From: Aequorivita aurantiaca
GTDB lineage: Bacteria; Bacteroidota; Bacteroidia; Flavobacteriales; Flavobacteriaceae
Direction of reading: 5' to 3'
Assembly: GCF_030410135.1 (NCBI RefSeq)
Contig: NZ_JAUGQQ010000009.1
Coordinates: 1 to 64,000 of the forward strand
Length of the DNA stretch: 64,000 bases
Each line of letters opens with the position of its first letter. The first letter of the stretch is position 1. A program made the position numbers and the translations under genes. Of the stretch, positions 5,090 to 62,600 are shown piece by piece. The notes under the pieces are model-generated. The model saw only the letters and a list, made by a program, of their open reading frames with translations. It was not told the DNA's origin and made no database searches.

Positions 5090-5144
5090 GCAACACGATT
5101 TTGCGGAAAAACGCCTTCTTTAGCTTGATTTTTCAGAGAGAAAA

Positions 5145-5178
5145 AAACCCGTACAACAAGCTGTACGGGTTTTTTATT
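5145..5178. terminator. Bidirectional intrinsic terminator
   Basis: A perfect 11-bp stem (AAACCCGTACA pairing with TGTACGGGTTT) has a 6-base loop, with a run of A on the left and of T on the right. It lies between the convergent OmpA operon and the following minus-strand gene and can serve both. Confidence 0.9.
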
Positions 5179-5192
5179 TTAATACTAATTTC

Positions 5193-7469
5193 CTAAGGCT
5201 CCAACGCAAAGGCTGCAGTTTGGTGGTAATCCTGCGCAACGCGCCATATACCATCCGTAGCAGTGGAAAGAATGTGCAAGGTTTCAGCAAAGGCTGCTTT
5301 TCCAAATCCTTCTTCATAACACACCCCTAATAAATCCGCTGGCATGAAGGATTTGCTGTAAACGCCGGACATCGTATTTAAATGGTAGCCATCAGCGCTG
5401 TCTATCACCATTCCTCTTGCATTTGCAATGGAACCTCCCATGCAAGTTCCTTTTATTACGCCAAAACTGAACTCGGCAAAATCAGTGGGATGGGTTGCCT
5501 TAAAGCTCAGCTCAAGATCGGCCTCCACACCCTCGGGTTTGTACTTCACAAAACCACAACAGGTGGACGATGCCGGAACACCGCCCACATTTACTGTGTA
5601 GATCGCGCCTTCGCACTGCCCATTGTCAATTCTTATAAGCATTCTAAAGGCATCCGCATTGGAGGTAGTTGGATTTTCCAATAGTATGTTCGGCGCATTT
5701 TCACTATATCTTGCATCGTCATGCCTTGGTGTTTTAAAGTTAGCCTTGGGAATATTTTGTAATAAATTCCCAGCTTGGTCAAATAATTCCAACTTTAACT
5801 CGTATAATCCATTTTCAAAATCGTCTACAACAGTAGTATCAAAGTGGATGGTATCCATATTGTAAGTCTGCTGGTGCCAATGCGGGTGCGACGCAGCCGG
5901 CACATTAAACGGGGCCATTGTTGGCTCCTCTGGTGGAATTATGTAGAGGTTATCATTTGGACCCACCGAAAATGGTCCCAATTTTTTGCTTTCCGGTGCC
6001 CATTGCCAATCGCCGTTGCTATCCGTGTATCTATATTCGTATCCTTTTCGCACTTCACCTCCTTTGGGCGGCAAAGGATTATAGGTATCTCCAACAATCG
6101 TTAAATCTGCATTGGCACGTTGTCTATAACTCCATCGATAATAATAAACATTCGAGTTTGGCAATGCGGGAGCAAACCCCATTCGCAGCACAGGACTGCC
6201 GCCAAAGGGTCTTTTGTAATCATCTATTGTTGTGGTTATAAAACTATCGCCAGCTGCAGCTGCATCCGTTAGTCCTATTCTATCGTAAGGTACGGTCTGT
6301 CCTGGTGGTGCCAACAATTGATGCGTTTGTTTTATATGCGAAACGCTAGTATGGCCAACGGTACGAATCCAAACATCTTCCCCTATAAGTTCGCAATCGC
6401 AGCAACAATCGCCAGCCACCCGTGGATCGGACACATGAATATTGATGTCGGTACCGCACACGTAGTTCCAATGGGTATTGCAGGGCTTGGGTGGTTTATG
6501 CACGGTAGTCCATACCCCTCCAATCATATATTCCACCCAAATATAAATGTCCGGCTTGTCCCCAAAACAATGATAATAGATATTTTTTTCAAACCTGCCG
6601 GCGGCATTGGTCTCTACCACCGCCAACTCCTGGCATCGGTAAAAATGTGGCCACCACCACGGCCAGTAACAAAACCATGGATGAAAAAGGGCGTAGTTTT
6701 TTACGATGGCTTCCCTAATACTATTCAAATTGCCTGAAGATAATTGTTTCTTTATATCAGCACCCAATTCTGGCAAAACCGAAAGTGTTTCGTTTCGAAT
6801 TTGCTGGAGCGATTGGGTTTTAAAAATATTCTCTTCCTCCTGCCCGCTTATATTGGGAAAACGTTCCAATCGCCTAAATGGATCGGGATCGGGAATGGGA
6901 ATGGGCACTTCAAATTTTGGGTTCAATATCGCATCGGGTATTTTCGCAATAATGTGATCGGGTATTTTTTGGATCCAATAATTAATAGGATCAATTTCAC
7001 AAATATGAACCCTTGCACGGCAAACAGGAAGATCCTCCCAACCATTGCCGAAATTGAACCACTTTGATACTTTTCCACTTACCCGGCATTTACACTTAAG
7101 CCAAAAAATGGAAAGCCTTTCCGGAATGGGTAGGATGTCCAAAACATGGTTGTCATTCAGTCGCAGGATTGGCTCATAGGCTTTGAAACCTTGCAACTGT
7201 TCCATGGTTTTAACGCGGGTAATTTTCTTATCGGATGCGGGAGCAATAAATAGACGAAACTGCTCTGGATCCAATTTCCTTTCCATAGTTTTTTCGGACC
7301 TATTTTCTAGATTGAATTCCAGGAAATTTTCCTTCACATATTGCCATTGAAGCAATAATCCTTTACAATTGAAAAGGAAGCCAATAAGCGGTAAATCTAC
7401 TTGAGGTGGTTGTTCAAAATCTACTCGGATTCTGAAATTTCTGTCGGTGTATTCAGGATTTTTAGCCAT
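5193..7469 (-). CDS. Large Trp/Cys-rich protein with transthyretin-like segments, function unknown
   Basis: A 758-residue protein that starts MAKNPEYTDRNF and has no signal peptide or membrane helix. Residues about 120-160 (CKCRVSGKV, then LPVCRARVHICEIDP) and 278-320 (CQELAVVETNAAGRFEKNI) look like transthyretin/carboxypeptidase-regulatory-type beta sandwiches. Between them lies a proline-rich linker (about 185-197) and an aromatic cluster at 262-279 with FHPWFCYWPWWWPHF. A Cys cluster DCCCDC lies at 354-359. The C-terminal half is beta-rich with no family I can name. It stands alone, convergent with the T9SS operon and downstream of 313 bp of non-coding DNA. Structural or extracellular roles fit the composition, but the missing signal peptide argues for a cytoplasmic protein or a non-Sec export route. 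No function is assigned. Confidence 0.8.
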   Translation of the reverse strand: MAKNPEYTDRNFRIRVDFEQPPQVDLPLIGFLFNCKGLLLQWQYVKENFLEFNLENRSEKTMERKLDPEQFRLFIAPASDKKITRVKTMEQLQGFKAYEPILRLNDNHVLDILPIPERLSIFWLKCKCRVSGKVSKWFNFGNGWEDLPVCRARVHICEIDPINYWIQKIPDHIIAKIPDAILNPKFEVPIPIPDPDPFRRLERFPNISGQEEENIFKTQSLQQIRNETLSVLPELGADIKKQLSSGNLNSIREAIVKNYALFHPWFCYWPWWWPHFYRCQELAVVETNAAGRFEKNIYYHCFGDKPDIYIWVEYMIGGVWTTVHKPPKPCNTHWNYVCGTDINIHVSDPRVAGDCCCDCELIGEDVWIRTVGHTSVSHIKQTHQLLAPPGQTVPYDRIGLTDAAAAGDSFITTTIDDYKRPFGGSPVLRMGFAPALPNSNVYYYRWSYRQRANADLTIVGDTYNPLPPKGGEVRKGYEYRYTDSNGDWQWAPESKKLGPFSVGPNDNLYIIPPEEPTMAPFNVPAASHPHWHQQTYNMDTIHFDTTVVDDFENGLYELKLELFDQAGNLLQNIPKANFKTPRHDDARYSENAPNILLENPTTSNADAFRMLIRIDNGQCEGAIYTVNVGGVPASSTCCGFVKYKPEGVEADLELSFKATHPTDFAEFSFGVIKGTCMGGSIANARGMVIDSADGYHLNTMSGVYSKSFMPADLLGVCYEEGFGKAAFAETLHILSTATDGIWRVAQDYHQTAAFALEP

Positions 7470-43673: not shown

Positions 43674-44831
43674 TTAAGGAGTCAATACCACTTTTACGCA
43701 GTTATCCTTTTTATTATTGAAAATATCATACATCTTTGAAGCGTCGGCCAATGGAACCTTATGGGTTATGATATCATCCAGCACCACCTTCCCCGTATTT
43801 ACCAAATCTATTAAATGATCTATATAGTTATGGACAAACGCTTGGCCGCCTCTAATCTTTACGCCTTTGTCGAACCATTGATGCACCGGAAAATTATCGT
43901 AGGGAGACCCATAAACCCCCACAACGGTAACCGTACCTCCACGTCTTACCGCATCTAAGCAGTACCCGATTATTTTCATGGTGCCAACTTCGCCCTGAAT
44001 CAAGTTTTTAGCTCTAGACAGGAGGCCATGTTCGGCTTCCATCCCTACGGCATCTACACATACATCGGCGCCATAGCCTCCGGTCATGTCGCGAATTAGC
44101 TGTACGGCATCTGATTTCTTGCCGTTGATAACTTCAACATTGGCGGCCTTTTTTGCCATCTCGAGTCTGTAATCCTCAATATCAATTCCTATTACACGAC
44201 CTGCGCCCTGCAACCAAGCGGACTTCATTGCCATAATGCCCACGGGGCCACAGCCAAAGACTGCCACGGTTTCCCCTCCTTTCAATTCTGCCCAATCGAT
44301 GGCTGCCCAACCTGTGGGAAAGATATCGGTAAGGAAAAGGGATTGGGAATCACTGAGGTTTTCAGGGACAATGCGGGGGCCGTTATCTGCATAGGGAACG
44401 CGCACGTATTCGGCTTGGCCGCCACTATATCCTCCGTAAAGATCTGTGTATCCAAAAATGCCACCTCCTTTGCCCTTTACGAGTCCACCTTCGGGGCCGT
44501 AGTTTTCGGGGTTACTATTTTCACAATGGGTGGGAAGCGCCATATTGCAGAAATGGCAACTGCCGCAGGAAATGGGAAAAGGCACTACTACCCGATCCCC
44601 TACCTTGAGATTGCGCACGCCCTGGCCAACTTCCTGGACAATCCCCATAAACTCATGGCCCATTACCATATCCTTGGCCTGGGGGATATAACCATTATAA
44701 ATATGAAGGTCGGAGCCACAGATTGCCGTGGAGGTAACCTTTAAAATGACGTCCTTACTATCCTCAATTTTTGGATCATCAACTGTTTCTACCTGAATAT
44801 CCTTGGGTTTGTGGAATACTGCTGCTTTCAT
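43674..44831 (-). CDS. Zinc-dependent alcohol dehydrogenase (formaldehyde-dehydrogenase-like MDR)
   Basis: The 385-residue protein is a medium-chain zinc dehydrogenase. Catalytic zinc ligands are in AICGSDLHIYNG (Cys38) and MGHEFMG (His-Glu 59-60 region); the structural zinc loop is CGSCHFCNMALPTHC with four Cys. The Rossmann domain has AVFGCGPVGIMAM (GxGxxG) and VIGIDIEDYRLEMAKK, where the Asp implies NAD. The long loop GGLVKGKGGGIFGYTDLYGGYSGGQAEYV is characteristic of the glutathione-independent formaldehyde dehydrogenase/threonine dehydrogenase-like branch. Substrate is uncertain; a detoxifying or general alcohol role is likely. It is a single-gene unit. Confidence 0.93.
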   Translation of the reverse strand: MKAAVFHKPKDIQVETVDDPKIEDSKDVILKVTSTAICGSDLHIYNGYIPQAKDMVMGHEFMGIVQEVGQGVRNLKVGDRVVVPFPISCGSCHFCNMALPTHCENSNPENYGPEGGLVKGKGGGIFGYTDLYGGYSGGQAEYVRVPYADNGPRIVPENLSDSQSLFLTDIFPTGWAAIDWAELKGGETVAVFGCGPVGIMAMKSAWLQGAGRVIGIDIEDYRLEMAKKAANVEVINGKKSDAVQLIRDMTGGYGADVCVDAVGMEAEHGLLSRAKNLIQGEVGTMKIIGYCLDAVRRGGTVTVVGVYGSPYDNFPVHQWFDKGVKIRGGQAFVHNYIDHLIDLVNTGKVVLDDIITHKVPLADASKMYDIFNNKKDNCVKVVLTP

Positions 44832-49193: not shown

Positions 49194-49454
49194 TTACCAA
49201 CTATCAGTATCGATTATCCGGTTTTGGAGGCTTGTTTTTAGCAGGTTAAGGAGTTTGGATTGATTGGTTTTCCGCAATTTTATTTCCTGGAAGGTGCGGT
49301 AGCAATCGCCCAGATCGATATTGAAGATATGCTCGAGGGTAGAACCGAATTGTCTGATGCCTATATTGCCGTTATTCACTACACCGGAGGCCTGGAGGGC
49401 GTAGATGAGTTCCACGAGATCTACTTTCTGGCCCGGCCACCAATTGTGATGCAG
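49194..49454 (-). pseudogene. rteC: RteC C-terminal remnant (conjugative-transposon regulator)
   Basis: An in-frame segment of about 86 residues reads LHHNWWPGQKVDLVELIYAL, then QASGVVNNGNIGIRQFGSTL, EHIFNIDLGDCYRTFQEIKL and RKTNQSKLLNLLKTSL, ending at TAA 49194. This is the conserved C-terminus of RteC, the tetracycline-responsive activator of excision genes in CTnDOT-like elements. A TAG codon lies in frame shortly upstream (about 49462) and no rest of the gene (normally about 280 residues) is found, so it is a 5'-truncated pseudogene. A small GC hairpin CCGCC/GGCGG flanked by two GATACAG copies lies near 49121-49147. The position suggests the defence genes beyond it came with, or into, such an element. 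Confidence 0.82.
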
Positions 49455-49477: not shown

Positions 49478-50839
49478 TTATACAGTTATTAATTCAAGAT
49501 TCGTGATGTTTGCGATTTTCTTTATTTCGAGTAAATCATTTGAAGTAAGATCTTCGGTTGTAATTACTTTAATATCATCCGTAAAATCGACGAATTTATT
49601 TTGCTCTTGTATTTTTAACTTGGATGAATCAATTACAATAAATTTGTTTTTGCAGTTCTTCAATATTTCTCTTTTAGACCTTATTTCGTAATTGCTGTGT
49701 ACCGCAAAACCTTCATTCTTATAAACCCCATTCGCGCCTACAAAGCAGATATCTGCCCCGCCAAGTTTAGATATTGTCTCTTGGAAACCAGAATCAACAT
49801 TCTGATAAATTTCGTCATCATTAACAACGGCTAAAGAATTGGGTCTTATCCGACCTTCTGTCATAAACACACTTAAAATATTATTATTATCAACCAAACC
49901 CAACTTACTCGAATACGTTAAAAGCTCCTGAGCTATAGGAATGGAATTAGTAACTATTTTTAAATTATCCCATAATCCCATTTCTAAGCCTTTATTAATT
50001 TCTTTCGCAATAGCTAAGGTCGTGGAACCTGAGTCTAGTGCTAAAATAAAATTAGAATTAATAAACTTTATTGCTCGTTTTGCGATTTTCTCCTTATTTT
50101 TTGAATGGATTGCCAATTTCCATGAATAATGTTCTTGTTTAACCCAAATATATTCACCATCACTTACAATTCCGGTTAAATGGTTCTGTTTTATTATTCG
50201 AGTAATTAAATCTTTGAAAGAGAAAATAGAAATATCCACTAACTCATTTTGCTCTTTAAGCATCTCTAAAAGCTGAATTAAGTCGAGAGGATTATTTTGA
50301 CGATATGGATAAACTAACAATCTTACTTTTTCTGCAATTTCCTTAATAAAATGGTCAGCTTCATCTAATAAATCTAAGGAGGACTTTTGATCTGAACCTA
50401 AGCCACTGCCATATAGCTCCTTACAGGTCCAGGCAAATAATTGATGGATTAAATTTTTAGCGGTCAAAGCAATAGCCTCATCTGAAAATTCATAGCATGG
50501 AAGGAAAAATCTTTTTTTTATATTTAAATCTTCTATAGAATCCCATATATCTTTTTCCAAAACAATTGGAAGGACGAAGGGCCTACTAAGTTTCAATTCC
50601 TTTTTAATTCCCCAATCAAATTCCTGCATAACCCAATTAGATTCAACCGCATTTCTATCAATAATTAGAACTAAGAAATTAATATCCTCTTCAATAGTTT
50701 TTTTAATAGTGTTTTGAACTTCTTCTCCAATAAGAAGTTTTTTTTCGTCAATCCATAATTCAATAAAATCCGGCATATGTTTTCTTAATTCTTTAATAAA
50801 TAGCTTTTGTCTTTGACTATGACTTATGAATATTTTCAT
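49478..50839 (-). CDS. TIR domain fused to a DeoR-type effector-sensing domain
   Basis: A 453-residue protein. Residues 1-145 are a TIR domain: MKIFISHSQRQKLFIKEL, LWIDEKKLLIGEEVQNTIKK, FLVLIIDRNAVESNWVMQEF with the expected catalytic Glu at position 73. TIR domains in bacterial defence hydrolyse NAD or make cyclic ADP-ribose signals. Residues about 183-234 could be a degenerate winged helix. Residues 240-450 match the DeoR C-terminal domain: KNKEKIAKRA, LDSGSTT (268-274), VTNSIPIAQEL, GADICFVGANG (361-371), a paired KRE (389-391) and FIVIDSSKL. In DeoR regulators this fold binds sugar phosphates. Fusion of the two suggests that a metabolite gates TIR activity. The start is 1 bp after the stop of the membrane-protein gene, so the genes are translationally coupled. 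Confidence 0.88.
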   Translation of the reverse strand: MKIFISHSQRQKLFIKELRKHMPDFIELWIDEKKLLIGEEVQNTIKKTIEEDINFLVLIIDRNAVESNWVMQEFDWGIKKELKLSRPFVLPIVLEKDIWDSIEDLNIKKRFFLPCYEFSDEAIALTAKNLIHQLFAWTCKELYGSGLGSDQKSSLDLLDEADHFIKEIAEKVRLLVYPYRQNNPLDLIQLLEMLKEQNELVDISIFSFKDLITRIIKQNHLTGIVSDGEYIWVKQEHYSWKLAIHSKNKEKIAKRAIKFINSNFILALDSGSTTLAIAKEINKGLEMGLWDNLKIVTNSIPIAQELLTYSSKLGLVDNNNILSVFMTEGRIRPNSLAVVNDDEIYQNVDSGFQETISKLGGADICFVGANGVYKNEGFAVHSNYEIRSKREILKNCKNKFIVIDSSKLKIQEQNKFVDFTDDIKVITTEDLTSNDLLEIKKIANITNLELITV

Positions 50840-50840
50840 T

Positions 50841-51251
50841 TTATTGCGAATTGAGGGTTAATAAAAACAAATATGCACTTAACGTTAATATTATTAATAT
50901 CAAATACAAAAAGAAAATAGAGAATCTAAACAAAATAGGCAAAAAGGATATCTTTTTCTTAAGGGCAGTAATATCTAAATTTAAATTTGACTGTTGACTA
51001 GCAACTTCGTTCGTATAAAATAATCGATAGATTTTTTCTAACCAGAGATAATAAGAATCTAGAACCCAAAAAATAATAATTATTGGTATCCCTGAAATGA
51101 GTATTATTACTTTTTGCTTATCCAAACTTAATGCTATCAATCCAGTAATGAGCGTAATACACCATCCCTTTATTAGAAATGAATTTGTGCTCAATCGGGT
51201 GATAACATTCTGTATAAATTCAAGATGTTTTATTTTAAATTGTTCATCCAT
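50841..51251 (-). CDS. Small membrane protein coupled to TIR-DeoR
   Basis: A 136-residue protein with a soluble N-terminal helix (MDEQFKIKHLEFIQNVITRL), two hydrophobic helices (about 28-43 FLIKGWCITLITGLIA, 47-64 VIILISGIPIIIIFWVL), a polar middle (YYLWLEKIYRLFY...) and a long final hydrophobic region (about 108-133). The opening, SxxFLIKGWxxTLI..L and FWxLDxYYLWLEKIYR match a widespread but uncharacterised small membrane family that turns up near immune-like genes; SLATT-type 2TM effector proteins are similar in layout. It is the first gene of the operon. Its likely part is membrane effector, receptor or anchor for the TIR protein; that is inference. Confidence 0.82.
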   Translation of the reverse strand: MDEQFKIKHLEFIQNVITRLSTNSFLIKGWCITLITGLIALSLDKQKVIILISGIPIIIIFWVLDSYYLWLEKIYRLFYTNEVASQQSNLNLDITALKKKISFLPILFRFSIFFLYLILIILTLSAYLFLLTLNSQ

Positions 51252-51475: not shown

Positions 51476-54442
51476 CTAATAATACTCTTTTATATATGCA
51501 TAGGCCCGCTCAAAAAGCACCTGGTCTTTATGAAGCCTATATTTTAAAAGCGCTTTTCTAAGCGATTGCTGAACTTCCCGCTCACCTGAACTTGTTGTTT
51601 GCCACCCAGGAAAACTTACCATTCTTACGATACCATCTATATCATTTACGATACGTTCTACTACTGCGGGAGTTTGATCGGTTTTAAGCTCTATAAATAA
51701 TTCCGTTAATGCTGCTTGCGGCGTTTTTTCCTGTATCAGCTCTTCTATTTCTTTTTCTGCCTGTACTGTTTCCTTGGCAAGTTTACAAAGTTCTTTTACA
51801 AACTCAATTGAAGTAATTAACCCCTGTTCCGCCTGATCTCTTAGTGCTTCCAGCCGCTCACTTAACTTTTTAAATTTTGGATCACCAGCGTGTCTCTTAA
51901 ATCTTTTTACGAGGATTTTTTCAAGCTTTTTAGCATTTGAAGGATCGGGATTATTAAAGATATTTTCTATTACATCTGCATCCAATCTATATTCTTCCAA
52001 AGTATGCACATCGCCAACGTGGATATTTTCATGCATTAATTTTGTAGTCTGTGCTCCCAAAGCTATCCATAACAATTTACCCAAATTGTCACCCGCAGGC
52101 CTTACAGACTCGAACACTTGAGATAACCATTTATAATCTTCTTGATAAATATCGAGCATTCTATCTGGTGATAAGGACTCCCATAATTTGGATAGATACT
52201 TATAATCTTTTGCAAAGGCATCTTTCTTCTTGTCATCCTTAATGGCATTTTGCGCCTTTTCCAATCCCTCAAAACCTTCAATCGTTCTATCTACTCCTTC
52301 AAAATGAGATAAAGCATTCTTTACAGCTTCGGGTAATTTAGTTCGCAATAAGGATAGATTGGTAATTACCGTTTTAACTGATTCCTCATCAAACTGCAAT
52401 GCTTTTGCCGCATCATCAAAGACTCCGAAATAATCCACAATACGTCCAAATGTTTTGTTAGGATATAGTCTGTTTGTTCTACAAATAGCTTGCAAAAGCG
52501 TATGATCTTTCAAGGACTTATCCAGATACATTGTTTGCAATATCGGCGCATCAAAGCCTGTAAGAAGTTTTGCAGTTACTATAATAAATTTAAGTTCCGC
52601 TTGCGGATCATTAAATTCATCTATGATTTTTTCTTGCTGACTTTTATCAATCCCCCACTGCTGTTTAAATTCAAAAGAATCATTAGCAGAGGTTGAAAAA
52701 ACAACGCTACTCGCTTCTGGAATAAAATATTTATCCAGCTCTTCTTTATATTGCACACAAGCATAACGGTCTGGTGTAATAATCATAGCTTTAAACCCTT
52801 GCGGAGCTACTTTTTCTTTAAAATGAATTGAAATATCCTTCACAATGCGCTCCACACGTTCGGGCGCTTTTAAAAAAGCTGCCATACGTGCGGCTTTCTT
52901 GTTTAAGGCATCGGCTTCTTCATCGCTTAGCGCTGCGCTTTCAGCAAATTCTTTAAATGCTTTATCTATTGTTTCCTTATCTACGTGAACATCTACCAAT
53001 CGCGGTTCAAAATGTAATGGCAGGGTGGCATTGTCTCTGATAGAATCGTGAAAGGTATAGCGGGACATATAGGCTCCTTTATCTTCCTCGGCCCCAAAAG
53101 CCCAAAAAGTATTTTTATCTGCTTTATTTACGGGCGTTCCAGTCAATCCAAATAAAAATGCATTGGGTAAAGCTGCACGCATTTGTCTTCCCAAATCTCC
53201 TTCCTGGGTTCTATGTGCCTCATCAACCAATACAATAATATTTTCGCGAATATTCATATTAGGTTTCGCATCGCGAAACTTATGAATCATAGAGATAATT
53301 ATTTTCCGCGTATCTCTTTCCAGCAACCTTTGTAAGTCTTTAATATTATCGGTGGTTTCCACATTGGCTACATCTGCAGCGTTGAAGGTTCCAGATATTT
53401 GAGTGTCTAGATCAGTTCGGTCAACAAGAATAATAACTGTGGGACTTTTAAGCGATGCTTCCCTCCGCAACTTTTGCGCGGCAAAAACCATCAATAAGGA
53501 TTTACCAGAACCTTGAAAATGCCACAACAATCCTTTTTTAATTGATCCTTCTTTAACACGCTCCACTATTTTATTGGCGCCCTCATACTGCTGAAAGCGA
53601 CAGATAATTTTGATTCGCTGTTTTTTATTATTGGTTGAAAAAAGAGAAAAGTTTTGTAGTATATCTAATAACCTTTTTGGACTTAACAGATCAGTCAACT
53701 GTTTGCCGATTCCCTCTAATCCTAATTGTTGTGCCAAATCCATCTTATCTGCCTCCAGGCGCCATGGAGCCCAAAATTCTAAAGGAGTTCTAATTGCACC
53801 ATAATAAAGTTCTTTTCCTTCTGTGGCAAAGGAAAGTATGTTAGGTACAAATAATTGTGGTACCGCATTTTCATATATTTCGTGAACCTCATAAGCACCA
53901 TCCAACCAACTTACAGCAGGTCTTATAGGTGTCTTTGCCTCCCCAATTACAATTGGTATGCCATTAATTAGCATTACAATATCCGGAATCTTGGTTTCCC
54001 TATTGTGAATTCTATATTGGTTGGTAATTATATAGCTGTTGTTTTCTATGGTCTCAAAATCTATTAGCCTTACTGGAACGTGCCGATTGTTTTTCCCAAA
54101 AGGCATGGTTTTATCGCCAGACATCCATTTAAAAAATTCCTCATTGGCCCGTACCAAACCTGTTTGGTTTACTGAAAGCAGAATAGCACGAAGTTTATAA
54201 ATAACCTCATCTGCCAAAGTTGGGTTTTGATTGATCTCAGGGTTTAATCTGATTAATGACTCTTTCAACTCATTTTCCAGCAACACTTCATTTACACCAC
54301 GCTTTAATTCTTGGGCAGTTTTAAAAACCCATTGCTTGCCATAGGCTGCATTGGGCTCTGAAATATCTGGTCGATTTAGATTGCTTCCGCTTAGTTGGTA
54401 GATGATGTAGTTTTCTACACTGTTTAGCTCGTTAAAGGCCAT
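51476..54442 (-). CDS. hsdR: Type I restriction endonuclease subunit R
   Basis: The 988-residue protein is HsdR. Residues about 125-165 carry the PD-(D/E)XK nuclease core, IPDIVMLINGIPIVIGEAKTP. The SF2 motor follows: motif I WHFQGSGKSLLMVFAA, DEAD-type motif II VLVDEAHRTQEGD, motif III FGLTGTP, and motif VI-like LLTGFDAPILQTMYLDKSL with LLQAICRTNRLYP. The C-terminal 300 residues are helical and contact the methylase-specificity core. It translocates DNA using ATP and cuts remote from unmethylated target sites. GC content of sampled stretches (about 48%) is higher than that of the three genes placed between it and hsdS. It ends the operon; its start lies 5 bp after the GHKL gene. Confidence 0.96.
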   Translation of the reverse strand: MAFNELNSVENYIIYQLSGSNLNRPDISEPNAAYGKQWVFKTAQELKRGVNEVLLENELKESLIRLNPEINQNPTLADEVIYKLRAILLSVNQTGLVRANEEFFKWMSGDKTMPFGKNNRHVPVRLIDFETIENNSYIITNQYRIHNRETKIPDIVMLINGIPIVIGEAKTPIRPAVSWLDGAYEVHEIYENAVPQLFVPNILSFATEGKELYYGAIRTPLEFWAPWRLEADKMDLAQQLGLEGIGKQLTDLLSPKRLLDILQNFSLFSTNNKKQRIKIICRFQQYEGANKIVERVKEGSIKKGLLWHFQGSGKSLLMVFAAQKLRREASLKSPTVIILVDRTDLDTQISGTFNAADVANVETTDNIKDLQRLLERDTRKIIISMIHKFRDAKPNMNIRENIIVLVDEAHRTQEGDLGRQMRAALPNAFLFGLTGTPVNKADKNTFWAFGAEEDKGAYMSRYTFHDSIRDNATLPLHFEPRLVDVHVDKETIDKAFKEFAESAALSDEEADALNKKAARMAAFLKAPERVERIVKDISIHFKEKVAPQGFKAMIITPDRYACVQYKEELDKYFIPEASSVVFSTSANDSFEFKQQWGIDKSQQEKIIDEFNDPQAELKFIIVTAKLLTGFDAPILQTMYLDKSLKDHTLLQAICRTNRLYPNKTFGRIVDYFGVFDDAAKALQFDEESVKTVITNLSLLRTKLPEAVKNALSHFEGVDRTIEGFEGLEKAQNAIKDDKKKDAFAKDYKYLSKLWESLSPDRMLDIYQEDYKWLSQVFESVRPAGDNLGKLLWIALGAQTTKLMHENIHVGDVHTLEEYRLDADVIENIFNNPDPSNAKKLEKILVKRFKRHAGDPKFKKLSERLEALRDQAEQGLITSIEFVKELCKLAKETVQAEKEIEELIQEKTPQAALTELFIELKTDQTPAVVERIVNDIDGIVRMVSFPGWQTTSSGEREVQQSLRKALLKYRLHKDQVLFERAYAYIKEYY

Positions 54443-54447
54443 ATTTA

Positions 54448-57231
54448 TTATCCTTTTAGACTTTTTATAATCGCAGTTTCAAGCTCTAAAATCGATTTTG
54501 ATTTACTCTTCAGAAATTCGTAATCTATGCTACATCTAAAATCTGCATTAAGCATTAATAATTTCGCTTCTTTAGCCCTACTAGTGCTTTCCACAACCTT
54601 TTTATGATCATCATATACTGTTTCTAAAAAATCCCCTGGTTTTGATATAAACTTCAAATTTTTCAAAACATAATCCTCGTCCATATCTTTAATATCCTTT
54701 GTGCGCTCAATGAGAGCAATACAATAATGCTCTTTATATTTTGGATTTACAGCTCTCTCCAATTGAGAAATGGCAAGTTTTATCGAATCAGTATTACCTT
54801 GACGAACAGACTTCATCTCAATGTAGAAAGACTTACCGTTTACAGGATTAGTTATCCTAAAATCATATGACCCTCCCCCAGCATAAACAAAATCAATTGC
54901 ATCTAAATCTACTTTTTCAACAATTAAACCTAAATGCATTTTCTCGAATGCTGACTTAAACAATTTTTCAACATCACTTCCTATCAAAGACTTTGTGTCA
55001 AAGTCACGTTTTTTTTCACCCTCCTCACGAGCAATATTCATTACAGCTATAGGAATGGTATTTGGGAATAAATCTGCTAGCTCTTTAAGCTGAGTTAGAT
55101 TTGTTCCCGAATCAATTATACTTACAATTTGATTTATCTCAGATATATTGTCTAAAACCTTATTTAATTCTTCTTGAGTAACTTCAGATTCTGCAAGTTT
55201 AACTAAAGTATCTTGCTTACCACTATCTCGAATTGTTATCGCTTTTACTCTTTCTTCTTCATCAAAACTCTCAAGAAAAAAATTTGTATAGGAACTATTA
55301 AAAGTTGGAAAATAAATTGGTAAATCACCCCATTTTGGAAATCCTTTACTTTTTAACCATTTTAAAAGTTTGCTCAATCCTTCTATTTCCTGTTTTGATA
55401 ATCTAGAATTTGCATCAAGACGAATTCTAAAAATATCATCAATTTCCTTTGCTAAAGTTTTCCATGTCTTAAATTTATTATCAGGTAATAGATTAGGAAT
55501 CTTTTTATTTATATCATTGTTTAAAAGCTTATTTCTATAGTCCTCACCTCTCATTTTATTGTATACTTCTATCAAATCAGGAAAAACTCCTTTATCAGTA
55601 AAAATTTCAGCATCCCTATTTACAAAATCACCTTTTTCTGACTGACTGGGGAGTATTTTAAAATTAGTAAGTAATCCGGCATCATTAACTTTAACATATT
55701 TAATAAAATTTCCTAACCACTCAACTGTATCTTCTTCATTTTTATTAATATAATCGGCAAGTTGTATTAAATTTTTTTTATCCTCAACCATTTTTACAGC
55801 TGCTTCCAATCTGAAAGGAACGGATTTAAATATAGTAAAGTCAATATTTTTTAACCATTTCAAATATTCTACTCTGGCGGGAACTTCATTTAAAATTAAA
55901 TCACGGGTAATATCATAAAATTCCAAATCCTTTGACTCAGTTTTATTTTCGGGTATAAAAGGAAGTTTCAGTTTGGAATACGAAATGGACTTACCATTAC
56001 AATTAATAAAATCTACTTCATCAAGAACTATTTTAATTTCTTTTTCAATATTTTTCTGAAACCAGTCAGAATTACTTGATAGAGCTTTTATCCTATCACT
56101 TTTTAATTGAACTAAATTATATAGATTTCCAATTTCATCATTAGCCAAGTTCTCAAGCAATTTTTTAAAAGCTTTTACTCCATTCAGTAGGTTGGTTCTG
56201 TTTTCAATATCATTGTCTGATATATTTATTCCATTACGCTCGGTTTCAGGTTTAAATTTTGGAGAATTTATTGTTACCGGAAAAGGAAATCTTTCGGAAC
56301 CAATCATAGGAAGATATAAAAAAAGTACTGCAATCTCTTCTTGATACTCTACTACCCTATTATTTTCTATTTCTGTTGCTACAATTACATCTGCTTCTTT
56401 AAAATACCTTACTTCAATATCATTCTGAGGTTTAGAGTTAATATTCAAGCCTATTTCACATTTTCCTATTTCTTCGTTTCTACTTTTTTGATAAAATAAT
56501 TTTTCTTCCAAACCATTTTTGTGCTGTATAATTTTAACAGATTTAAGTTTTGGTAAGAAAGTAAAGACTAAAGGCAATACTTTAATTGCATACTTAATAC
56601 CTGACAGCGCGTATTCTTTTGAATTTAAGCCAGGTAAGCTATTGGATAAATCATAAGTGAATTTGTTGTCGAATGATCCTGATAAATAATCCACTGATTT
56701 ATAATCAGTCTTTAATTGATCTTCAGATTCTTTAATAGAATCAATTAAAAGTTTTTTTGAATTATAATCTTTTCTATTTAATTCAAACTTAAAACTATAA
56801 TGTTCGGTGTCCCGATACTTATCTTTAACCAAACCTTCAACAGTTATAAAAGCAGAAAGGACGTGTGTAGATATAAAACCACTCCCAAATCGCCCAATAT
56901 AATCTTCATCAATATCATCATCATCTTTATCAGAATCTGGTGTTATTAAATTTTCTACATCTACCAATTTAAAAGGCTTACCATTGTGCCTAAAAATCAA
57001 CTTGTCCTCCTTAAGTTCTAATTCAATATCAACTTCATCATTAAAATCACTTGCATTTTGAACTAATTCCCAAAACCATCTATATTGAAGTGACTGAATT
57101 TTACTAGGAATTGGCTCTAATTTCTCCATCAATCTTTTAGCAGGAATACTTAACTTCTTTTCAATTTCCGTTTCCTTAATTTGCTCTTCAAATGAAATAA
57201 TTTTTTCGATTCCAATAATTTTTTCTTCCAT
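54448..57231 (-). CDS. Sacsin-like GHKL/HSP90-type ATPase with C-terminal PD-(D/E)XK-like (DUF3883-type) nuclease domain
   Basis: A 927-residue protein. The GHKL ATP-binding site is clear: N box FWELVQNASDF (53-63) with Glu55 and Asn59, HNGKPF (82-87) in place of the usual DxGxG as in sacsin-like HSP90 relatives, and the lid loop GRFGSGFIST (113-122). Residues 150-760 are long, unrecognised and helix-rich. Near the C-terminus, YDFRIT (789-794) followed by FYIEMKS with E807-x-K809 and QLERA fits a D..ExK nuclease core, as in DUF3883-type domains. It is embedded in the hsd operon, 5 bp before hsdR. The DNA is AT-rich (about 30% in sampled lines). A DNA- or phage-triggered ATP-gated nuclease is a reasonable reading, unproven. 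Confidence 0.85.
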   Translation of the reverse strand: MEEKIIGIEKIISFEEQIKETEIEKKLSIPAKRLMEKLEPIPSKIQSLQYRWFWELVQNASDFNDEVDIELELKEDKLIFRHNGKPFKLVDVENLITPDSDKDDDDIDEDYIGRFGSGFISTHVLSAFITVEGLVKDKYRDTEHYSFKFELNRKDYNSKKLLIDSIKESEDQLKTDYKSVDYLSGSFDNKFTYDLSNSLPGLNSKEYALSGIKYAIKVLPLVFTFLPKLKSVKIIQHKNGLEEKLFYQKSRNEEIGKCEIGLNINSKPQNDIEVRYFKEADVIVATEIENNRVVEYQEEIAVLFLYLPMIGSERFPFPVTINSPKFKPETERNGINISDNDIENRTNLLNGVKAFKKLLENLANDEIGNLYNLVQLKSDRIKALSSNSDWFQKNIEKEIKIVLDEVDFINCNGKSISYSKLKLPFIPENKTESKDLEFYDITRDLILNEVPARVEYLKWLKNIDFTIFKSVPFRLEAAVKMVEDKKNLIQLADYINKNEEDTVEWLGNFIKYVKVNDAGLLTNFKILPSQSEKGDFVNRDAEIFTDKGVFPDLIEVYNKMRGEDYRNKLLNNDINKKIPNLLPDNKFKTWKTLAKEIDDIFRIRLDANSRLSKQEIEGLSKLLKWLKSKGFPKWGDLPIYFPTFNSSYTNFFLESFDEEERVKAITIRDSGKQDTLVKLAESEVTQEELNKVLDNISEINQIVSIIDSGTNLTQLKELADLFPNTIPIAVMNIAREEGEKKRDFDTKSLIGSDVEKLFKSAFEKMHLGLIVEKVDLDAIDFVYAGGGSYDFRITNPVNGKSFYIEMKSVRQGNTDSIKLAISQLERAVNPKYKEHYCIALIERTKDIKDMDEDYVLKNLKFISKPGDFLETVYDDHKKVVESTSRAKEAKLLMLNADFRCSIDYEFLKSKSKSILELETAIIKSLKG

Positions 57232-57254
57232 ATCGTTAGCGTTGTGATTATTAT

Positions 57255-57848
57255 TTAAAATTTTGTTAGAGCTATTTTTCTACACTCTCTTCTTAATAGT
57301 GTTAATTCTTCAATTGCGGAAGGATTATAAGTAGTATTTAAAAAAGGACGATTATTTTCTATTATTGTAGATTCAATTAATTTTAAATTATTATCTATTG
57401 TAATCCAATTTACTGTCAAATTGGTTTCAATCCATTCTATAATTTCTGATTGATCTTTATAAGAAAACCTGTAATTTTTTTGATTGGCTTTACCGATTAA
57501 AGACCCAATTGGCGGGGTATATCTTAAAATAGCGCCTAAAGTTCTAAAAAAAGTGCCAGGACCTTTTGCGTATAATTCCTGATTCAATCTCTTCTTTAAG
57601 CTTATTGAGGCCATCCCTATATATAGCAAGTTGTGACCACTGCTAAGAATTGTATTAATTATATCATTAAATAAATCTGGTTCTTTACTTAATTGTAATT
57701 TTGCTTTTAAATTTGCGGGATTTGCTAAACGTATTGCATATACTCCAGGTTCTGCTGGAATTTCTTTGATTGCTCTAATAACAGGAATAAACCAAGTATC
57801 CTTTATCAATTTGTTACTTATTTCAGTGATATTCTCTGATGCTTTCAT
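57255..57848 (-). CDS. GIY-YIG nuclease-like protein
   Basis: A 197-residue protein with a GIY-YIG core: EPGVYAIRLANP (first strand), NLLYIGMASISLKKRLNQEL (YIG strand and the Arg helix), a Glu in LIESTIIENNRPFLN corresponding to the catalytic acid, and the closing NPSAIEELTLLRRECRKIA. The catalytic Tyr, Tyr, Arg, Glu and Asn positions all look filled. It is soluble and has no additional domain. It lies between the two GHKL genes in the hsd operon with gaps of 23 and 105 bp, so it may supply a nicking activity to their products. Small single-domain GIY-YIG proteins of this kind are seen in restriction and DNA-repair loci. Confidence 0.85.
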   Translation of the reverse strand: MKASENITEISNKLIKDTWFIPVIRAIKEIPAEPGVYAIRLANPANLKAKLQLSKEPDLFNDIINTILSSGHNLLYIGMASISLKKRLNQELYAKGPGTFFRTLGAILRYTPPIGSLIGKANQKNYRFSYKDQSEIIEWIETNLTVNWITIDNNLKLIESTIIENNRPFLNTTYNPSAIEELTLLRRECRKIALTKF

Positions 57849-57953
57849 AAACTTATTTTTGCTTTTACATAACGGTCAAATCGAACGAATAGATCAATAA
57901 GCTTTAATTAAATTAACATAGAGTAATCTATTACTCTCCTAATTCCTAAAACA

Positions 57954-59987
57954 TTAAATCCCTAACTTATTGAACAATACTTTATTTCTTTTCTTTGCAT
58001 TTGATAACACTTGGTTAAAAGGCATAACATCAATTACGCATTTCAAACTTTTATTATAACCATAGTATCCCAGGCCATCGTAAGTTTTTTCTAATTGAGC
58101 ATTTTCAGAATATTCAATTATCTTTTCGTTTATATCACAAATTAAATAACAGTAGAATCGAGTGTACTCATTTATATCATACGTTCTTCCATCTGCTGTC
58201 AACTTTTTACCATTGCGAATTTTTCTAACATAATCGTATAATTGAACTATAGGATTGTCAACATATTCATTATAGCCTTTTCGCATAGGCCTTTTAAATT
58301 CAACAAGAACAACAGAATTAAACGGAGCTTCATCACCCTCTATATAGGAAATTGGATTATTAAATATCATTAAATCAGGTCGATCCTTTGGATCTCCTTC
58401 AAAATCCTCGATTGTATTTAATGCTCTATCGGAAGATAAAAAAGTATGAAAACTTAAGCGTTCATCTAGAATCCAAAGATTCTGATTGTTATAGTCTATT
58501 TCGTTGGATGTAGTTTTTGTGGGATAAATAATACTATGAACTGTATCTTCTAATTCATATTTACCTTGCACATTTAATCCAAGTGATTTTTCAAACAATT
58601 CTAATATATATTTTCTATGCACTACATATTGAGAAAGTTTAGATTTGTTTAAATCAGTAAGCTCCTCAAATATTTTCAAATATTTTTGTTTTAAAACATC
58701 AGCATTCTCATCTCTAGCATCATCTGTCAATACTGAATTAACATCTCTTCTTGTACCAAATTCAACGTCTTGTAACAGTCTGTATAATTTTAAATCTAAT
58801 TCTTGCTCCGAAGTATTTTCAGTAACCACTACATCATCAAAAGATTCAACATACTTATTTAAAATTCTATATTGTGGTGCTTTTTCAGCAATGAAATCTG
58901 AAATTCTTTCTAATTTTTCAGCTTTAAATTTTTCTACTTCTTCACTAAAATGTTTTTTAATTACTGGAATCAATTCTTTATATAAATCACTTTCCGCTAT
59001 TAATTCTTCATCTAGAATCCCATTTTTACTAAATCTTATTTCAGTACGTTCATCATTTATGTTATCATCGAAATACTTACCCTCAATATATCCTACAATA
59101 AGATAATTTTGAGCTGTTGTTGAATCCTTAATTTTACCACTTACATCGGGAAGTACTTTATTGATATTAAAGTTTTCTACTTCTCTATGATTGGCAGACA
59201 AGGAAATTCTATGAAAAGTTAATTCCTCATGTTCAAACCATTTTAAAAGAGTTATTTTAAAGTCATTAGTCCCCACATTAAACTTTTCGGAAAATCGATT
59301 ACCCCTTGTGATTTTATCAAAGTAATTGTTTAAATTAATTTTATCAGAACCATCTAGTAAATTAATATTAGGACAATTTTCATTTAAAAAATAAATTAAA
59401 CAATGTTCAACAATTCTATTGGCAATAGTGTCAATTCGTTTAGGACATTTTGATCTATATGGATCCTTGTAACCATTAAGGGTTATTATGGTTTTCTTTT
59501 TTGGATTTCCTTCCAATTTATTTACAACTGGATGCTCGATTCCATCCGTGGTTCTTAGATTAAAGGAAAAACTTCTTTTCTGTGGTTTTAAACCTTCATA
59601 ATAAATACTTTCAATTGTAACATTGTAAAATGCTTTTAACCACATAAATCGTCCAATACCCAAACCACCCCTTTCAGCTTTGTGAGTAGAATACTCTCTT
59701 TTAAAAGATTCATAATTCTCTTCATTAAATCCAATACCATTGTCTTCTATTTCAAATCCTATAATTTCCGGAGTTAATCGACCAATTTCAAATTCAATAC
59801 TTGATTGAGAGGAACGAATTAATTTGATGTTAATTTCTCCTTTTGGACTTTTGGTATCTTCAATTGCGTGGATAGAATTAATTATGGCTTCAAACAAAGG
59901 CAGAAGCATATTTCGTTCCGCTAACTTTAATCGATTTACTCTACCTTTTAAATCAATTCCTATTTTATCTGTTGTAGTTTTTGCCAT
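57954..59987 (-). CDS. GHKL/HSP90-type ATPase with C-terminal PD-(D/E)XK-like nuclease domain
   Basis: A 677-residue protein, unrelated in sequence to the 927-residue one apart from the fold. The ATPase site is canonical: LFEAIINSIHAIED (Glu33, Asn37), FEIEDNGIGFNEEN (79-91) and the lid RGGLGIGRFMWLKAF (106-120). The C-terminal region has RPDLMIF (536-542), VVLVEFKRPM with E563-x-K565 and a following PIVQLYDYVRKI helix, matching PD-(D/E)XK nucleases, often annotated as 'ATP-binding protein' in defence loci. It lies 10 bp after hsdS, and 105 bp before the GIY-YIG gene. The DNA is AT-rich. It may use ATP binding to control nuclease activity; substrate unknown. Confidence 0.87.
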   Translation of the reverse strand: MAKTTTDKIGIDLKGRVNRLKLAERNMLLPLFEAIINSIHAIEDTKSPKGEINIKLIRSSQSSIEFEIGRLTPEIIGFEIEDNGIGFNEENYESFKREYSTHKAERGGLGIGRFMWLKAFYNVTIESIYYEGLKPQKRSFSFNLRTTDGIEHPVVNKLEGNPKKKTIITLNGYKDPYRSKCPKRIDTIANRIVEHCLIYFLNENCPNINLLDGSDKINLNNYFDKITRGNRFSEKFNVGTNDFKITLLKWFEHEELTFHRISLSANHREVENFNINKVLPDVSGKIKDSTTAQNYLIVGYIEGKYFDDNINDERTEIRFSKNGILDEELIAESDLYKELIPVIKKHFSEEVEKFKAEKLERISDFIAEKAPQYRILNKYVESFDDVVVTENTSEQELDLKLYRLLQDVEFGTRRDVNSVLTDDARDENADVLKQKYLKIFEELTDLNKSKLSQYVVHRKYILELFEKSLGLNVQGKYELEDTVHSIIYPTKTTSNEIDYNNQNLWILDERLSFHTFLSSDRALNTIEDFEGDPKDRPDLMIFNNPISYIEGDEAPFNSVVLVEFKRPMRKGYNEYVDNPIVQLYDYVRKIRNGKKLTADGRTYDINEYTRFYCYLICDINEKIIEYSENAQLEKTYDGLGYYGYNKSLKCVIDVMPFNQVLSNAKKRNKVLFNKLGI

Positions 59988-59997
59988 ATTTAAATAC

Positions 59998-61137
59998 TTA
60001 AAACACTTGATTGATTAAACTTTTTTGGAGGGATTTTGAACTAGATATTTTTAATTCAACCAACTTAATGCTATTATTCAAGGAGTTAAAAAGATTGATT
60101 ATTACCTCTTGATCTATTTTAGTTAACTTTGGAATTTCAATATTTTCTATCATTCCTGGATCCACGTGGGGTATTGCAGAGCCAACCGTAGCTCTTTTTA
60201 TATCATTTGTTTTGAATCTTAAAAATTGAAAAACAAAATCTTTTAAAAAGCCTTCTTTTTTAATAATTAGCTTACACATTGTACTAGCTAAAAACCCTTC
60301 TTTTCCGAAGAGCATTTCGCCTGCATTGGAACCATCCCATAAAATTAAAATATCTGTCTCATCAATTTTAATAGATTTATTCCAAGACTCTTTTGGAACA
60401 ATTGATTCAATTTTTCCAGTTCGTAAATACTTTGCTGTACAATATGGAAGACCATCTCCTTCCTCTAATAAAACAGGTGGCTTTTTTCCTTTTTTAACCG
60501 AAACTATATGTTTAAGTTTAATTCTTTCTGAATTTTTATCATCATAAAAATAATGCTTAAGGTATGCTAAATCCTCTTTAATTAGTTTCTCTAAAACCTC
60601 ATTCTCCCTCGCAATAACCTCATCCATCGTCCAAAGCAATTCGGCCAGTTGGGCTTGTTGGTCTTTGGGTGGGAGGAGGAATTCTTGTTCTTTTAATTGT
60701 CCCCAGTTTATAGTAGGAGAAAGACCTCCAACAGAAATATCAACCGCTTTGTGCATAAATAAATCTGAATGCAAAAAGAAAGGAAATAACTTTGGATCAA
60801 TTACTTTAGGATTCGCTCTTAAAACAAAGGCGTGTGCAGAACATATTCCTTCAAAATCAACAATTGCTGCCTTGCGTTGATAGGCGCGACGTTTTCCGAA
60901 AATAACATCGCCAGGATAACATTTTAATTTTCCGCCGCTTACATCTGCTGGCGTACCTTGTCTGTTTATATGAATACTCTCGGCATCTATGTGTTCTAAA
61001 CCAATATAGATTTCTAAATCAGTGGTATTGGGATCGACGGTTTCTGATATTTTATTTGCAATTTGATCAAACCGAAAACTTTTCCAATTTGTTTTATCCA
61101 GGTTTTTCAAAACAATATTTTGCTTCATTGTCATCAT
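59998..61137 (-). CDS. hsdS: Type I restriction specificity subunit S
   Basis: The 379-residue protein has the two target-recognition domains expected of HsdS. Domain 1 (about 1-165) includes LPPKDQQAQLAELLWTMDEVIARENEVL, the conserved helix at the end of a half. Domain 2 starts at about 200 and closes with IPKLTKIDQEVIINLFNSL and the final helix KISSSKSLQKSLINQVF. HsdS decides the bipartite DNA site. Base composition changes in the middle of the gene: the part coding for domain 1 samples at 43-50% GC and domain 2 at about 27%. The start lies 2 bp after the hsdM stop. Confidence 0.94.
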   Translation of the reverse strand: MMTMKQNIVLKNLDKTNWKSFRFDQIANKISETVDPNTTDLEIYIGLEHIDAESIHINRQGTPADVSGGKLKCYPGDVIFGKRRAYQRKAAIVDFEGICSAHAFVLRANPKVIDPKLFPFFLHSDLFMHKAVDISVGGLSPTINWGQLKEQEFLLPPKDQQAQLAELLWTMDEVIARENEVLEKLIKEDLAYLKHYFYDDKNSERIKLKHIVSVKKGKKPPVLLEEGDGLPYCTAKYLRTGKIESIVPKESWNKSIKIDETDILILWDGSNAGEMLFGKEGFLASTMCKLIIKKEGFLKDFVFQFLRFKTNDIKRATVGSAIPHVDPGMIENIEIPKLTKIDQEVIINLFNSLNNSIKLVELKISSSKSLQKSLINQVF

Positions 61138-61139
61138 CC

Positions 61140-62600
61140 TTAATTCAAGATTTGAAATAATTCATCCATACTATTTTTAAGAGCGCATGATGATTCGTTC
61201 CAGTTTTTTAAGGCATCTTCAACAGAGAGTTGAATGCTATCAGTATCTACATTGCTAACATATTGCGCAATGTTCAAGCTACTTTTATTGTTTAAAATTT
61301 CTTCATTGTCTAGTACCTTACAAAATCCTTCCTCATCTTTAAATAAGTTATATGTTTTATAAATTTTCTCAATATGTTTAGTTTCCAGATAGGCTATATT
61401 TTTCTCTTGTTTTACTTCTTTAACCGCATTAATAATCAAAACCTTTCCTTTTCTATTTTCCTTTTTATTGGTTGTTGTAATCAGCAAACAAGCCTCCATA
61501 GGCGAATTATAAAACAAGTTTGGGCCAAGTCCAATAACACATTCAACCAAGTCTTCCTCTATCATTTTTCTACGCATTTCCGCTTCGGCATCACGAAACA
61601 AAACACCGTGCGGCCATAAGGATATAGACCGACCATTGTTAGCATCCAAACTTTTCTGTATATGCTGCTGAAAGGCATAATCTGCACAGCCCTGTGGCGG
61701 TGTACCCCAAAGGTTACGGCCATAAGGATCGTTTACAAATGCTTTTTGGTCCCACGCTTTTATAGAGTAAGGTGGATTGGCAAGAATTACATTAAAGGTT
61801 TTTAATTGGTCGTTATGTAAAAAAGCGGGCCGCGCCAAGGTATCGCCCCGTACAATGCTAAATTCTTCTATGCCGTGCATAAACATATTCATACGTGCAA
61901 TGGCTGAGGTTATCAGGTTTATTTCCTGCCCATATAATTTTAGTGTCCGGTATTCCTTGCCTTCTTCCTTTAAATGCAAGGCGCAGTTAAGTAACAAACC
62001 GCCCGAACCGCAGGTAGGATCGTAAACACTTTCTCTGGGTTGCGGGTCCATTATCATCGTCATCAGTTTTACTACCGTGCGGTTGGTGTAAAACTCTGCG
62101 GCGGTATGGCCACTGTCATCGGCAAATTCCTTTATCAAATATTCATAGGCATTCCCTAATTTATCATCGGGCACAGTCGCCAGATTTAGTTTGTGTTGGG
62201 AGTAATGCTCAATTAGGTTGGTAAGCGTTTCATCGCTCAGTCGGTTTTTATTGGTCCAAGAGGCATCACCAAATATACCATATAGCGTATCTGGGTTGGC
62301 GGTTTCAATAGCACGCATAGCTTCTTGCAAGGCAATGCCAACATTTGTAGTGGTTTCACGTACATTGTTCCAATGCGCCCCTTCGGGAATTTGAAAGTGG
62401 TGGTTTTCAGCAAAGGAAGCATATTCCATATCGCCATCACTTTCAGCTAATGCTTTTTCAAACTCTTCGTCATACACATCGCAAATTCGTTTAAAAAACA
62501 ATAGTGGGAAGATATACTGTTTGTAATCTCCTGCATCTATGGTTCCGCGCAATTGCGTTGCCGCACCCCAAAGGTATTTTTCTAGTTGTTGTTGGGTCAT
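61140..62600 (-). CDS. hsdM: Type I DNA methyltransferase subunit M
   Basis: The 486-residue protein is an N6-adenine methylase of the type I class. Residues about 1-150 are the HsdM helical N-terminus (LEKYLWGAATQLRGTIDAGDYKQYIFPLLFFKRICDV). Motif I is YDPTCGSGGLLL and motif IV ILANPPYSIKAWD, with FMHGIEEFSIVRGDTLARP between them. It methylates the HsdS-selected site and holds the complex together. It is short by about 20-40 residues compared with most HsdM, but all catalytic motifs are there. GC of sampled stretches is about 48%, like hsdR. Its start is 2 bp after the stop of the HNH/DUF262 gene. Confidence 0.96.
   Translation of the reverse strand: MTQQQLEKYLWGAATQLRGTIDAGDYKQYIFPLLFFKRICDVYDEEFEKALAESDGDMEYASFAENHHFQIPEGAHWNNVRETTTNVGIALQEAMRAIETANPDTLYGIFGDASWTNKNRLSDETLTNLIEHYSQHKLNLATVPDDKLGNAYEYLIKEFADDSGHTAAEFYTNRTVVKLMTMIMDPQPRESVYDPTCGSGGLLLNCALHLKEEGKEYRTLKLYGQEINLITSAIARMNMFMHGIEEFSIVRGDTLARPAFLHNDQLKTFNVILANPPYSIKAWDQKAFVNDPYGRNLWGTPPQGCADYAFQQHIQKSLDANNGRSISLWPHGVLFRDAEAEMRRKMIEEDLVECVIGLGPNLFYNSPMEACLLITTTNKKENRKGKVLIINAVKEVKQEKNIAYLETKHIEKIYKTYNLFKDEEGFCKVLDNEEILNNKSSLNIAQYVSNVDTDSIQLSVEDALKNWNESSCALKNSMDELFQILN

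Follow-up and report, generated by a model that had tools for sequence, protein, structure and literature searches.

A TIR domain fused to the sugar-phosphate-sensing part of a DeoR regulator, and encoded directly behind a gene for a small membrane protein, raises the question of whether the two genes constitute a new immune system, as the initial annotation had proposed. We addressed this question in a window of 64,000 nucleotides of Aequorivita aurantiaca (contig NZ_JAUGQQ010000009.1), the relevant features of which are collected in Table 1. The proposal stood in part: judged by sequence comparison, the TIR-DeoRC fusion is a conserved architecture and a maintained family, whereas the membrane gene was found beside only two of the four fusions and belongs to PDC-M50A, an existing PADLOC family. 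As its predicted genes read, the locus is a TIR module that resembles PDC-M50 but carries an unusual sensor.

Table 1. Positions within the window of the fusion gene, the membrane gene and the adjoining type I restriction operon.
Feature	Position	Strand	Basis
TIR-DeoRC fusion protein, 453 aa	49478..50839	(-)	ORF and Pfam; three further full-length relatives
TIR domain, residues 3-97	50549..50833	(-)	Pfam TIR_2, E 1.2e-11
Glu73 in SNWVMQE (TIR)	codon 50621-50623	(-)	S67, W69 and E73 invariant in 4/4
Middle region, residues 98-244	50108..50548	(-)	Without Pfam domain; RLLVYPYR (173-180) invariant in 4/4
DeoRC sugar-phosphate-sensor domain, residues 245-427	49559..50107	(-)	Pfam, PF00455 search of own genome, Foldseek
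136-aa three-helix membrane protein, PADLOC PDC-M50A family	50841..51251	(-)	PADLOC 8.5e-33; AF2; alignment A6
HsdR, type I restriction subunit	51476-54442	(-)	NCBIfam hsdR 2.4e-161; 224 bp upstream of the pair
Rest of type I operon	54448..62600	(-)	Pfam, PADLOC and NCBIfam scans
Sacsin-type ATP-binding N-terminus / NO VEIN C-terminus, 927 aa	54448-57231	(-)	PADLOC TmtA 1.5e-135
HsdS	59998-61137	(-)	Type I operon
HsdM	61140-62600	(-)	Type I operon

Domains and distribution of the fusion protein

The prediction that a TIR domain and a DeoR C-terminal fold share one 453-residue protein was confirmed, as both score above the curated Pfam cut-offs (TIR_2, 45.6 bits against 28; DeoRC, E 5.3e-24 and 85.4 bits against 31.8). 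A second Pfam TIR model also matched (TIR, 9.6e-07), and in PADLOC the fusion matched the PDC-S66, SAVED_TIR and short-Ago TIR models. The glutamate of SxWxxxE, which we take to be the catalytic-glutamate motif of TIR NADases, is present. The AlphaFold input was alignment A5, and given that it has only three rows across the TIR half and that almost every position of residues 1-242 has a pLDDT below 50, the TIR assignment rests on sequence. Alignments A3 and A4, which contained TIR-only rows, were dropped, as TIR rows had become aligned with DeoR rows in them.

With regard to the DeoRC half, the AlphaFold model is mostly confident. It resembles the part of E. coli DeoR that binds the effector (7l6l; TMt 0.74-0.80 over four chains, with a best Foldseek E of 1.6e-10), also matches ribose-5-phosphate isomerases (RpiA), and the profile of this half matched 7l6l at 6e-20. 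The phosphate loop LDSGSTTL (L268-L275) is invariant in all four fusions, as are TNSIP (T297-P301), GRIRPNSLA (G329-A337), GFAVH (G377-H381) and the single residues E385, D404, S406 and K407. The PF00455 search gave no second DeoRC match in the window's genome.

The N-terminal winged HTH of DeoR was not detected when residues 141-243 were compared by hhalign with 13 DeoR proteins. The probabilities were 0.1% for whole DeoR and 0.4% for the HTH part, with a thin profile of three sequences (Neff 1.2), and an HTH in the middle region is thus unsupported. Single-sequence DeoR alignments reach weakly into this region (of the three shown, two begin at residue 179 and one at 209), which makes a degenerate HTH remnant conceivable, and the middle region may hold one. 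No Rfam family matched between positions 44000 and 58000, and promoter and terminator scans yielded no more than the same scans of shuffled sequences.

Other proteins combining TIR and DeoRC were sought, and three further full-length copies were found, all of which keep Glu73 and the phosphate loop. The four fusions measure 452-454 aa and come from three genera and two families. Identity to the window's copy is 92.9% in genome G402, 69.1% in G513 and 42.1% in G1171, the last being made up of 45.0% over residues 1-120, 38.5% over 121-243 and 42.6% over 244-453. A total of 163 positions, including the three TIR residues named in Table 1, are invariant across the four.

Of the 28 genomes in the genus search, two carried the fusion, namely the window's and G402 (93%). 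At the level of the family, 12 of 397 genomes matched at 1e-7; those of the window and of G513 (70%), which is another genus, were full length, and the remaining matches were single-domain. Among the 386 genomes of the order search, the window's was the only one with a full-length match, and G1053 gave a TIR-only match. The class search, run with an alignment of three, matched in 2 of 355 genomes at 1e-14 and included the full-length fusion of G1171, from another family, and the phylum search matched in 68 of 395 at 1e-3, with both domains covered in the window's genome only. These four copies come from 1,561 overlapping genome draws, all within the phylum, which differed in their E-value limits and in which scoring covered a few top candidates from each genome; fusions may therefore have been missed. 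No fusion was confirmed in viral contigs, and no plasmid or phage record had a site covering 80% of the query; 22 plasmid and 5 phage records matched one part only.

Between the window and G402, its closest relative, dN is 0.040 and dS approximately 2.2 (near saturation), and the resulting ratio of 0.018 argues that the fusion is maintained by selection. The corresponding ratio for the membrane gene is 0.12. The conserved length, the invariant positions and the low ratio together point to selection over the whole length of the fusion.

The membrane protein, its family and known TIR systems

The coordinates confirm that the fusion starts 1 bp after the stop of the 136-residue membrane protein, a single base (50840) separating TAA from ATG (CAATAAAATG). 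In G402, the only other one of the four genomes in which the two genes were found as neighbours, the gap is 11 bp. The membrane gene was not found in the G513 genome by a search that was positive in two genomes, nor in the G1171 genome by a search without a positive control, and none was found near the G1171 fusion either. The initial annotation had tied its proposal to a lasting linkage of the two genes, and because the membrane gene accompanies two of the four fusions, a fixed two-gene system was rejected.

The PADLOC PDC-M50A match covers residues 1-128 of the membrane protein, and the AF2 model (pLDDT 94.1) comprises long helices at 3-41, 54-84 and 110-135. The model gave no significant match among solved structures, and a sequence search of solved structures gave no match. 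Across the 66 sequences of alignment A6, R19, S24, K28 and F61 do not vary, whereas Q14, I17, W30, E72, R76 and Y79 are nearly invariant.

Of the 417 relatives that a scan of genome contigs yielded for the membrane gene, the best 80 were analysed; by record title, these 80 belong to Bacteroidota, Proteobacteria, Clostridiales, Actinobacteria, Patescibacteria, Cyanobacteria and an uncultured archaeon. Together with 17 loci from whole genomes (L032-L048) and 11 viral contigs they make up 108 loci, from which the window (L031) and two loci with broken frames in the match (L049, L050) were left out. With TIR profiles built partly from the very neighbours counted, after grouping, a same-strand TIR-type gene was found within 150 bp at 86 of the 108 loci, in support of a link between TIR proteins and this membrane family, and on both sides at 19; among the best 80 of 417, the neighbour was present at 63 when any overlap was allowed and at 57 of the same loci when overlap was at most 60 bp, compared with 34 of 470 other ORFs of these loci. 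One member of each of five TIR groups was checked with Pfam and PADLOC (the ThsB270 group with PADLOC only), and a sixth profile was derived from rows of A3. As for the 22 loci failing the rule, the profiles missed a Pfam TIR gene that lies 102 bp off in L041, L135 has a TIR/SEFIR gene directly behind the membrane gene, L037, L083, L086, L091 and L137 have TIR-type genes further away or on the opposite strand, and in L077 and L079 the sequence stops less than 150 bp from the membrane gene.

The TIR partners of the family comprise ThsB (PF08937), TIR_2, LRR-Roc-TIR (L136) and TIR/SEFIR-TPR (L135) proteins. Since PDC-M50A occurs with many other TIR types, the membrane gene is no partner special to the fusion. 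Relatives were also present in 112 plasmid records, 73 of them typed conjugative, and in three phage records, from Vibrio. Six of these 115 records were inspected: the TIR gene was adjacent in five and one gene off in one, and the five of these six TIR proteins that were scanned match PADLOC ThsB or M50B models. The defence role of PDC-M50A, a candidate family, is a prediction of PADLOC.

Among the outer neighbours of the PDC-M50A loci (A8), 131 of 146 were scanned (120-900 aa). Ten match TIR_2, a few of these hits being adjacent TIR genes missed by the profiles, and no SIR2 or macro family with at least two members appeared among the families shown for the 131. Four of the 131 match the SLOG cluster-3 domain PF18180, a possible binder of nucleotide derivatives. 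NLR-like partners were seen twice: a PDC-M50A relative adjoins an LRR-Roc-TIR protein at L136:5974-9919, and another lies 188 bp from a TIR-NTPase-TPR protein at L083:5953-9746. In a Vibrio phage element (14 kb, PQ189363.1; L171:1347-2635), an annotated integrase, an annotated ThsB and a PDC-M50A relative stand in a row, the latter two possibly forming two-gene defence cargo.

The PADLOC candidate PDC-M50 (M50A and M50B) shares with the locus its membrane component and a TIR gene as operon neighbour. However, the M50B model spans 162 positions and describes a TIR of the ThsB type, whereas the partner in the window is the 453-aa TIR_2-DeoRC protein. The PADLOC M50B model gave no match to this fusion at E up to 1, and it does match ThsB-type TIR proteins beside other relatives of the membrane gene. 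In Thoeris (ThsB and ThsA, especially the TM-macro ThsA; PMC11204291), a TIR-type protein is likewise encoded with a membrane protein, and the loci with TIR genes on both sides resemble Thoeris in that several ThsB may share one ThsA. In contrast to Thoeris, the window pair has no SIR2, SLOG or macro match, and the three-helix membrane protein has no ligand domain. The ThsB-type TIR models (PF08937 and those of PADLOC) gave no match to the window's fusion at E up to 1, and the G1171 fusion has a weak PADLOC ThsB match (1.4e-05). A scan of eight ORFs between 49478 and 62600 (HsdR with PADLOC and NCBIfam only) found no ThsA, either SIR2-SLOG or TM-macro. As the M50B/ThsB and ThsA features were looked for and not found, the locus was filed as neither Thoeris nor PDC-M50, although it may work like both.

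The C-terminal half of the fusion, a DeoRC domain with its phosphate loop, follows DeoR regulators and the ribose-5-phosphate isomerase fold, but it is joined to a TIR domain and lacks a detected HTH. TIR-STING is another combination of TIR with a small-molecule sensor. TIR-SAVED (a PADLOC model) and Cat1 CARF-TIR similarly join a TIR enzyme to a ligand-binding domain. The ligands of all three are cyclic nucleotides made by a dedicated synthase, and no match to such a synthase was found among the window genes scanned.

Genomic surroundings of the four copies

The restriction operon reported beside the pair is real, as HsdR, HsdS and HsdM were all matched, and the pair follows HsdR. Other products of the operon are a GIY-YIG protein and a protein of 677 aa that matches HATPase weakly. 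A homologous type I operon without the pair is present in G416, of the same genus, with an hsdR that is 81% identical at the DNA level and with different inner genes; the type I operon may therefore be a platform for exchangeable genes. By eye, the inner genes of the G416 operon (L181:2821-13530) include an AbiE-like pair. Just behind the window's fusion, a short ORF (49194-49415) resembles, again by eye, the end of an RteC gene.

In G402, approximately the last 290 codons of hsdR are kept, together with the pair. One flank is the sensor-kinase region that borders the operon of G416 (79% over 2.5 kb), and the other flank is unmatched. The simplest reading would be that the restriction genes were lost and the pair retained. 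Between the window and G402, dS is 0.61 for the hsdR tails, 2.2 for the fusion and 1.4 for the membrane gene. The spacers failed to align, and given these differences, the cassette and hsdR may differ in history. An NT5C-type 5'-deoxyribonucleotidase gene lies 0.75 kb behind the G402 fusion (L052:8730-9533), with one small ORF between them, and on account of this intervening gene it was not counted as a metabolic partner.

At L183:2499-4657, the G1171 fusion gene is overlapped by 4 bp by an upstream gene for a Cof-type HAD hydrolase (Hydrolase_3 1.2e-59, sucrose-6-phosphate phosphatase profile S6PP 3.2e-12). Its surroundings include a DNA methylase, a PDC-S18-like protein and, by eye, an integrase. 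A divergent 401-aa gene starting 100 bp off (4758-5963) shows two C-terminal hydrophobic segments by eye and has no Pfam match. Defence-type neighbours, which the initial annotation had proposed to look for, are seen at three of the four loci (the restriction operon in the window, the hsdR remnant in G402 and the methylase in G1171), but not in G513. There the fusion, a single gene, follows a gene for a DinB-type polymerase (PF00817), and a LexA-like S24 regulator is encoded nearby. By eye, a gene 3.3 kb from the G513 fusion is integrase-like.

A proposed metabolite-gated TIR protein and its alternatives

DeoRC domains of transcription factors bind phosphorylated sugars, the ligand of E. coli DeoR being a small monophosphate, deoxyribose-5-phosphate, and the Cof-type HAD family includes many sugar phosphatases. 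Phosphosugar sensing by the fusion therefore fits the gene overlap seen in G1171. Of the independent hints at a sugar phosphate, this one case is the best, and it leans toward an ordinary sugar phosphate as the ligand; the ADP-ribose-like molecule of the initial annotation gained no support over it.

The reading that we prefer, with a probability of about one half, is that the fusion is a metabolite-gated TIR NADase or signal maker, governed by a DeoR-type phosphosugar-binding switch without a recognisable DNA-binding part. For the defence function, the ligand and the role of the membrane protein, we infer the following course. Phage infection would shift a phosphorylated sugar or a nucleotide breakdown product, and the DeoRC domain would read the change. 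This signal would free or assemble the TIR domains, leading to NAD+ consumption or to synthesis of an ADP-ribose-type signal. Where present, the membrane protein could be a downstream membrane effector, as proposed for TM-macro ThsA in Thoeris; in genomes without the membrane protein, the loss of NAD+ would by itself be the effector. Many TIR sensors would be served by the membrane family, the one in the window being a metabolite-binding domain.

Several observations count against a metabolite-gated immune TIR. A phage sensor that evolves fast would not usually show a ratio of 0.018, which would also fit a housekeeping regulator, the G513 fusion has no defence gene beside it, and two fusions lack the membrane gene. 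The fusion might instead be a metabolic or stress regulator whose TIR domain makes or degrades NAD+-derived molecules according to the sugar-phosphate state. Such a role would agree with the strong purifying selection and with the polymerase and LexA-like neighbours in G513, and the HAD phosphatase of G1171 fits metabolism equally. We nevertheless consider it unlikely, in view of the sporadic distribution, the differing genomic contexts, the restriction-type neighbours at three of four copies and the presence of a TIR-associated membrane family at two. The purifying selection, the polymerase context and the purely predicted function keep a non-immune role open.

The locus could also be a PDC-M50/Thoeris-like module in which the DeoRC domain provides a scaffold for oligomerisation and, as in other TIR sensors, a phage protein acts as the trigger. 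DeoRC proteins do oligomerise, and protein-binding repeats (LRR, TPR) occur in other partners of the membrane family. A mere scaffold, however, would need no ligand motifs, and those of the DeoRC domain are invariant in all four fusions; with a HAD phosphatase as one operon partner, this makes the scaffold improbable as well. Less probable still is the earlier idea that the DeoRC domain reads the TIR domain's own product, ADP-ribose or ribose phosphate. ADP-ribose includes ribose-5-phosphate, and the DeoRC fold is that of ribose-5-phosphate isomerase, but E. coli DeoR binds a small monophosphate, and no feature pointing to a nucleotide ligand was found in the fusion sequence.

No description of a TIR-DeoRC fusion was found among the literature matches listed, and nothing under the name PDC-M50, in searches with thin coverage of subscription journals. 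PMC8195603 was set aside, as its two 'DeoR' matches are an author's name. Given that the membrane gene is already known as a member of the PDC-M50A candidate family, the unusual part of the locus is the DeoRC sensor on a TIR protein. The bolder proposal that this is a TIR immune receptor with a phosphosugar of central metabolism as ligand, and that the widespread three-helix membrane protein is the common output of many TIR sensors, is tentative and rather doubtful. If true, a metabolite, and not a phage protein or a cyclic nucleotide, would set off immunity, the ligand being, for example, deoxyribose or ribose phosphate freed when a phage degrades host DNA, and the TIR sensors of the membrane protein would span ThsB-type to NLR-like proteins.

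For most bacterial TIR proteins, the way in which infection is sensed is an open question, and the fusion suggests phosphosugars as a candidate class of ligands. In addition, both bacteria and archaea carry a small and structurally simple membrane family beside TIR-type genes that differ greatly in design, and this recurrence makes its role tractable.
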